From assembly GCF_022984075.1 (NCBI RefSeq), contig NZ_JALAAD010000001.1:972455-1036454 (forward strand): DNA of 64,000 nucleotides, written 5' to 3'. This stretch comes from Synechococcus sp. C9. GTDB taxonomy: Bacteria; Cyanobacteriota; Cyanobacteriia; Gloeomargaritales; Gloeomargaritaceae. Made by a program: the position numbers and the translations under genes. Shown in pieces: positions 13,898-37,718 of this stretch; position 1 is the first letter of the stretch, and each line of letters starts with the position of its first letter. The notes beneath the pieces were generated by a model. It did not search any database and had not been told where the DNA came from. It saw only the letters and a program-made list of their open reading frames with translations.

Positions 13898-14549
13898 CTT
13901 CTTTTTTACCAATTGAGGTGATTTTGGTGAGAGCGTAACGGATTGGTGGATGATGATCATCACCGCCGCAAAATAGGCGTGAATGGTATTTTATTGAACA
14001 TCTACTAACATTTGTGTTCTCTCCATCTCCACCGGCAAAACCTGCTGGGCGGTCTTAAGTAAAACGGAAAAAAAAAGTAATTACGGATAGCTTAAACATT
14101 CATCAAGCTGATAGCTTACAGGACAAAACCATATAGCAATCCTCAACCATTAAGCAACAAAAATTCGCCAGAACCAAGAACGGGGGCTACGCCCCTGCGA
14201 CCCCTGTTCCATTCTCAGTTAGGATTGCTATAGCATTATATTTGGCAATTTTACTCAATTAACGTACAGAAATTTTGCAGAAATGTAAGTATGGGGGCAT
14301 TGCCCTTGCAACCCCTATTTACGGGTAATTATTAAAACATCTTTTTCATGAATCCTCACTGTTTCGTAAATTTTTTGGCAAATTTGCCATCCTACTCCCT
14401 AGTCATAGGAAAACCATAATTCCCTGGGGATGTAAGTCAATAAAAGTGCCCTGATAGGTAGCCTGGATTGCGGGGAATGTGGTATCGTAAGATTTACAAG
14501 TGCGTTCTTTATATCCATCACAACTTCAACCCATTTTCCCGTAACTGCT
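13898..14549. other. 652-nt gene-free spacer with one family B element and a core fragment
   Basis: Apart from the B element at 14132-14232 and a partial core (GGGGGCATTGCCCTTGCAACC, around 14292-14313) I see no ORF of useful length, no tRNA and no strong terminator. A short inverted repeat GATGATGATCATC occurs near 13950. Confidence 0.5.
14132..14232. repeat. Family B MITE-like element
   Basis: It has near-perfect terminal inverted repeats TATAGCAATCCT / AGGATTGCTATA. The core appears in the reverse orientation (CCAGAACCAAGAACGGGGGC, then TACGCCCCTGCGACCCCTG). It is about 101 bp with no coding capacity. Confidence 0.8.
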
Positions 14550-37027: not shown

Positions 37028-37718
37028 TATAGCAATCCTATTTACTTTAATTCAATTAGAAATTAGCAAATGGAAATTTCCCAGAACCAAATGCGGGGCG
37101 GTGCCCTGCGACGAGAAGTGAGGAGTAAGGAGTGAGAAACGAGAAGTGAGATTCCCAAGAACCAAATGCGGGAAGGTGCCCCTGCGACGAGAAGTGAGGA
37201 GTAAGGAGTGAGAAGCGAGAAGTGAGATTTCCTAGAACCAAATGCGGGGCGGTGCCCTGCGACCCATTTTTAGAAGTACCCTTAATTCAATTAGAAATTA
37301 ACGAATGGAAATTCCCAGAACCAATGATGGGGAAGGTGCCCCTGTGACGAGAAGTGAGGAGTAAGGAGTGAGAAGCGAGAAGTGAGATTTCCTAGAACCA
37401 AATGCGGGGCGATGCCCTGCGACCCATTTTTAGAAGTATAGTCATTCTGTTTTATAATGCGACACTTTTTAGGTATTGGCAATCGCTCTATTCCTTTCCG
37501 GGAGAGGGTTTGTAAGTAAAGGCGAATGTTGCAAATTTGTTTGAAATGACTATACCCTTAATTCAATTAGAAATTAACGAATGGAAATTCTCCAGAACCA
37601 ATGATGGGGAAGGTGCCCCTGCGACGAGAAGTGAGAAGTGAGGAGTGAGATTCCCTAGAACCAAATGCGGGGCGGTGCCCCTGCGACCTATATTCTAAAT
37701 TTATTTAGGATTGCTATA
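37028..37718. repeat. Composite repeat array bounded by family B ends
   Basis: About 690 bp between icd and carA begins TATAGCAATCCTA and ends TAGGATTGCTATA, the two ends of a single B element. Between them the core (AGAACCAAATGCGGGGCGGT) occurs at least eight times. It alternates with GACGAGAAGTGAGGAGTAAG and GAGTGAGAAGCGAGAAGTGA blocks, four copies in all. A larger unit beginning TTAATTCAATTAGAAATTAA is repeated. A family C element interrupts the array. It appears to have grown from one B element by tandem duplication. No gene is present in 36957-37755. Confidence 0.75.
37437..37554. mobile_element. Family C MITE with TA target-site duplication
   Basis: The 118-bp segment is bounded by TATAGTCATT and AATGACTATA, perfect inverted ends. 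The sequence AGAAG-TA-CCCTTAATTCAA occurs uninterrupted at 37272 and interrupted here as AGAAG-TA...TA-CCCTTAATTCAA. The insertion therefore duplicated TA, as IS630/Tc1/mariner-type elements do. There is no transposase inside. Reading GCAATCGCTCTATTCCTTTC and GGAGAGGGTTTGTAAGTAAA, internal parts match 8500-8616 and, inverted, 32418-32534. Confidence 0.8.

Follow-up and report, generated by a model that had tools for sequence, protein, structure and literature searches.

A TA-flanked 114-bp element of the IS630 group within a tandem repeat array of Synechococcus sp. C9

In Synechococcus sp. C9, the interval that follows the 3′ end of carA and leads up to the 5′ side of icd contains one short sequence twice, once intact and once split by an element with palindromic ends, which raises the question of what this element is and whether it was inserted there. 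We analysed the surrounding stretch of 64,000 nucleotides (the window) and the genome to which it belongs (2.96 Mb in four contigs). The features concerned are as follows.

37028..37718, no strand assigned: outer host, 691 bp, apparently a copy enlarged in tandem and belonging to a second TA-flanked repeat family, TATAGCAATCCTA...TAGGATTGCTATA, with TA outside both ends
37272..37291, + strand: paralogous empty site AGAAG-TA-CCCTTAATTCAA, with a single TA at 37277-37278
37437..37438, no strand assigned: duplicated TA target, left copy
37439..37552, no strand assigned: 114-bp element, very probably a MITE, beginning TAGTCATT and ending AATGACTA; its 28-bp ends correspond to the right and left ends of a resident IS630-type IS
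37553..37554, no strand assigned: duplicated TA target, right copy

The intact and the split copy read as an earlier note on this DNA had described them. The 19-mer across the empty junction (AGAAGTACCCTTAATTCAA) is found uninterrupted once in the window, at 37272-37290, with none expected in shuffled sequences even when two mismatches are allowed, and the filled site reads AGAAG-TA-[37439-37552]-TA-CCCTTAATTCAA. When aligned with the joined flanks of the filled site, the empty copy is identical at 89 of 90 positions on the left side, and on the right side 30 of 30 positions agree without a gap, while a single 1-bp gap extends the match to about 90 bp. The pair shows both the end points of the element and the duplication of TA, one TA being present in the empty copy and one on each side of the filled copy. 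The length of 118 bp given in the earlier note holds if both flanking TAs are counted; the element proper measures 114 bp. The two sites, however, are not alleles but tandem paralogous units of one array, spaced 160 bp apart. For this reason the pair alone does not distinguish insertion from deletion, and the claim that it proves insertion without outside comparison was too strong.

The direction of the event follows from the element being multicopy and from empty sites elsewhere. The genome contains 38 matches to the 114-bp element, 29 of them full or nearly full length when the copies are aligned individually, and TA, which the earlier note had named as a check on other copies, lies on both sides of 25 of these 29. 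The copies are short, have terminal inverted repeats (TAGTCATT/AATGACTA) and carry no transposase gene. Several subgroups, which have the right part in common and differ in the left 22 bp, include identical copies, a sign of recent spread. For ten other copies, we searched three genomes with the flanks joined. One of them, at C1:917.8k, has an uninterrupted orthologous counterpart in a related species (G002), which is 96% identical and contains exactly one TA. Another, at C1:512.9k, lies inside a transposase gene (PF01609), and four uninterrupted copies of this host gene in the same genome are 100% identical across the junction, providing exact empty sites. At both loci, insertion with duplication of TA is supported without recourse to the pair in the window. 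No orthologous empty site was found in G002 for the window locus itself, because G002 lacks synteny with the window downstream of carA and does not share the carA-icd junction; the comparison with relatives that the earlier note proposed thus succeeded for another copy only.

The earlier note had also suggested a search of the genome for an IS630-type transposase gene flanked by the same ends, and there is one. A DDE_3 search revealed several IS630-type families, among them a 957-bp IS with TAGTCATT/AATGACTA ends. It is present in seven full-length copies, five identical (all with TA on both sides) and the other two 99% identical, as well as in older fragments. It encodes an HTH_Tnp_IS630 half (PF01710, E 3.1e-43) and a DDE_3 half (PF13358, E 2.3e-28), which lie in different frames, the switch from one frame to the other falling at a run of eight A (A8). 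Both halves match NF033545 IS630, each under the full-length cut-off, as expected for the halves of a split frame. The D and E residues are 34 residues apart (D34E); with its HTH and DDE_3 domains, this spacing and the TA duplication, the 957-bp IS bears the marks of the IS630 family. By BLAST, positions 1-28 of the 114-bp element correspond to IS positions 957-930 (right end; 24 of 28 identical) and positions 87-114 to IS positions 28-1 (left end; 23 of 28), so that each 28-bp end has its own partner in the IS. The interior (29-86) had no match in the 957-bp IS and is thus not derived from it, meaning that the element is not a simple deletion derivative. Three other IS630-type families of the genome (ends TAGTCAAACAGGG, CAGTCTTTT and TAGCAATCC) were considered as the source and rejected, as their ends match at only 10-16 of 28 positions.

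The ends, the TA duplication, the copy number, the empty sites and the matching IS with its DDE transposase lead us to regard the 114-bp element, with a probability of about 95%, as a non-autonomous MITE of the IS630/Tc1-mariner group, moved by the transposase of the resident 957-bp IS or of a close relative since lost. The earlier attribution to IS630/Tc1/mariner-type transposition is borne out by the IS, the TA-flanked copies and the empty sites. The transposase would recognise the approximately 28-bp ends, excise the donor copy and join the donor 3′ ends to the TA in one unit of the repeat array, whereupon host repair would duplicate the TA. We infer that the transposase of the resident IS acts on the MITE in trans; its synthesis presumably involves a frameshift at the A8 run.

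The cut-and-paste chemistry that we ascribe to the MITE is known from ISY100, an IS630 relative of the cyanobacterium Synechocystis, whose transposase suffices for excision and for integration, the latter occurring almost only at TA, which is duplicated (PMC2170065). By analogy, these steps would explain everything seen at the MITE. The system described here resembles IS630/Tc1-mariner elements such as ISY100 in the duplicated TA target, the terminal inverted repeats, the N-terminal HTH and the DDE catalytic domain (PMC2170065). It differs in that the element in the window is a 114-bp non-autonomous partner, and in that ISY100-type elements are described with single transposase genes, whereas the local IS is split into two frames at the A8 run. 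The mechanism, non-autonomous IS630/Tc1-mariner transposition, is ordinary and well known, and the MITE is a clear example of an already familiar type.

We considered whether the MITE might owe its mobility to a different, now lost IS630 relative with better-matching ends, the resident IS being merely kin; this is a variant of the preferred explanation that differs only in the transposase. It would account for the imperfect identity of the MITE ends to those of the resident IS and for the divergence of the MITE subfamilies in the left 22 bp. The situation in G002 also speaks for it: this species has at least 22 good MITE copies, yet its only trace of the matching IS is a 140-bp remnant, and none of the intact IS630-type genes examined there has MITE-like ends. 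However, the resident IS is the sole family found in the genome with matching ends, and its five identical copies indicate recent activity, so we judge a lost source possible but the less probable of the two.

Two further explanations would do without insertion of a transposon. The 114 bp could be ancestral to the array and precisely deleted, or lost by recombination, from the other tandem unit; because the two sites are paralogous and belong to a single array, units could in principle be reshuffled by unequal exchange. Yet the element is present at many unrelated TA sites, and the other empty sites, in this and in another species, have exactly one TA, making such a loss very improbable. The palindromic ends and the intergenic position in the window might instead suggest a structured RNA or a regulatory repeat kept for its function. 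This we consider slightly less probable still, given that the element folds only weakly better than shuffled sequences (z −1.74), has no Rfam match, has one copy inside a transposase gene and was found at no conserved position across species. Transposition of a MITE thus remains the preferred explanation.

Exact matches to the pattern of the MITE ends in a public species collection, from which the genome of the window may itself be absent, came only from Gloeomargaritales cyanobacterium VI4D9, and among 39 relatives MITE matches were confined to the same genus. A plasmid collection yielded no match. One genome (G004) carries an IS with similar ends that is 82% identical to the 957-bp IS.

The array into which the MITE is inserted belongs to a much larger family, with TATAGCAATCCTA ends and a hairpin core (CCAGAACC...GCGACC). 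Its 13-mer end motif occurs 177 times in the genome of the window, 437 times in G002, 91 times in G004 and 31 times in G005, and is absent from three other genomes of the genus. Complete short copies are 101 bp long (for example 14132-14232 in the window). Because a decayed two-frame IS630-type element (L052:1390-2517) carries matching ends, this outer family, which we followed less closely than the 114-bp MITE, is probably also derived from IS630. The 691-bp host seems to be a copy enlarged by tandem duplication, into which the MITE was inserted afterwards; given the probable origin of the outer family, the arrangement is probably that of a MITE nested in a MITE. Fourteen of the 29 MITE copies lie within 120 bp of motifs of abundant interspersed repeats, compared with 8% of random window segments, although both may simply accumulate between genes. 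Between the hairpin units of the array there are also degenerate 7-bp repeats (GAGAAGTGAGGAGTAAGGAGTGAG; 37100-37650).

Tentatively, and at somewhat less than even odds, two IS630-type MITE families may coexist in genomes of the Gloeomargarita lineage: a very large one, with hundreds of ends and a hairpin core maybe swapped between transposon ends, and a smaller one that inserts into it repeatedly, the composite arrays expanding by tandem duplication, with the small family outlasting its IS in one species. Only the nesting and this apparent loss of the IS go beyond the textbook. Among cyanobacteria, Gloeomargarita is held to be the lineage nearest to plastids, and we found no paper on its transposons in the open literature. 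The locus offers a clean filled and empty pair within one genome, together with a candidate transposase resident in that genome, for a MITE family of Gloeomargarita. It also suggests that repeats derived from transposons supply a major part of the intergenic DNA in this lineage.

Bacterial MITEs, including the cyanobacterial Nezha (cited in PMC10969869), are likewise short, non-coding and multicopy, with terminal inverted repeats and a resident relative as a possible source of transposase; the likeness, drawn from description, concerns the kind of element. The 691-bp host, which resembles a MITE lengthened by tandem repeats in its interior, recalls the Porphyromonas gingivalis MITE with an internal minisatellite (PMC4596501), but here a second MITE family is inserted into the expanded array.

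In several half-MITEs (among L029, L031 and L033-L037), the left end runs directly into the abundant hairpin repeat, with the junction at a similar place, as would be seen if a truncated chimera had been propagated. At G000:C1:538257-539490 (L045, L009, L017), two MITE copies flank one IS630-type copy within about 1.2 kb, a possible composite.
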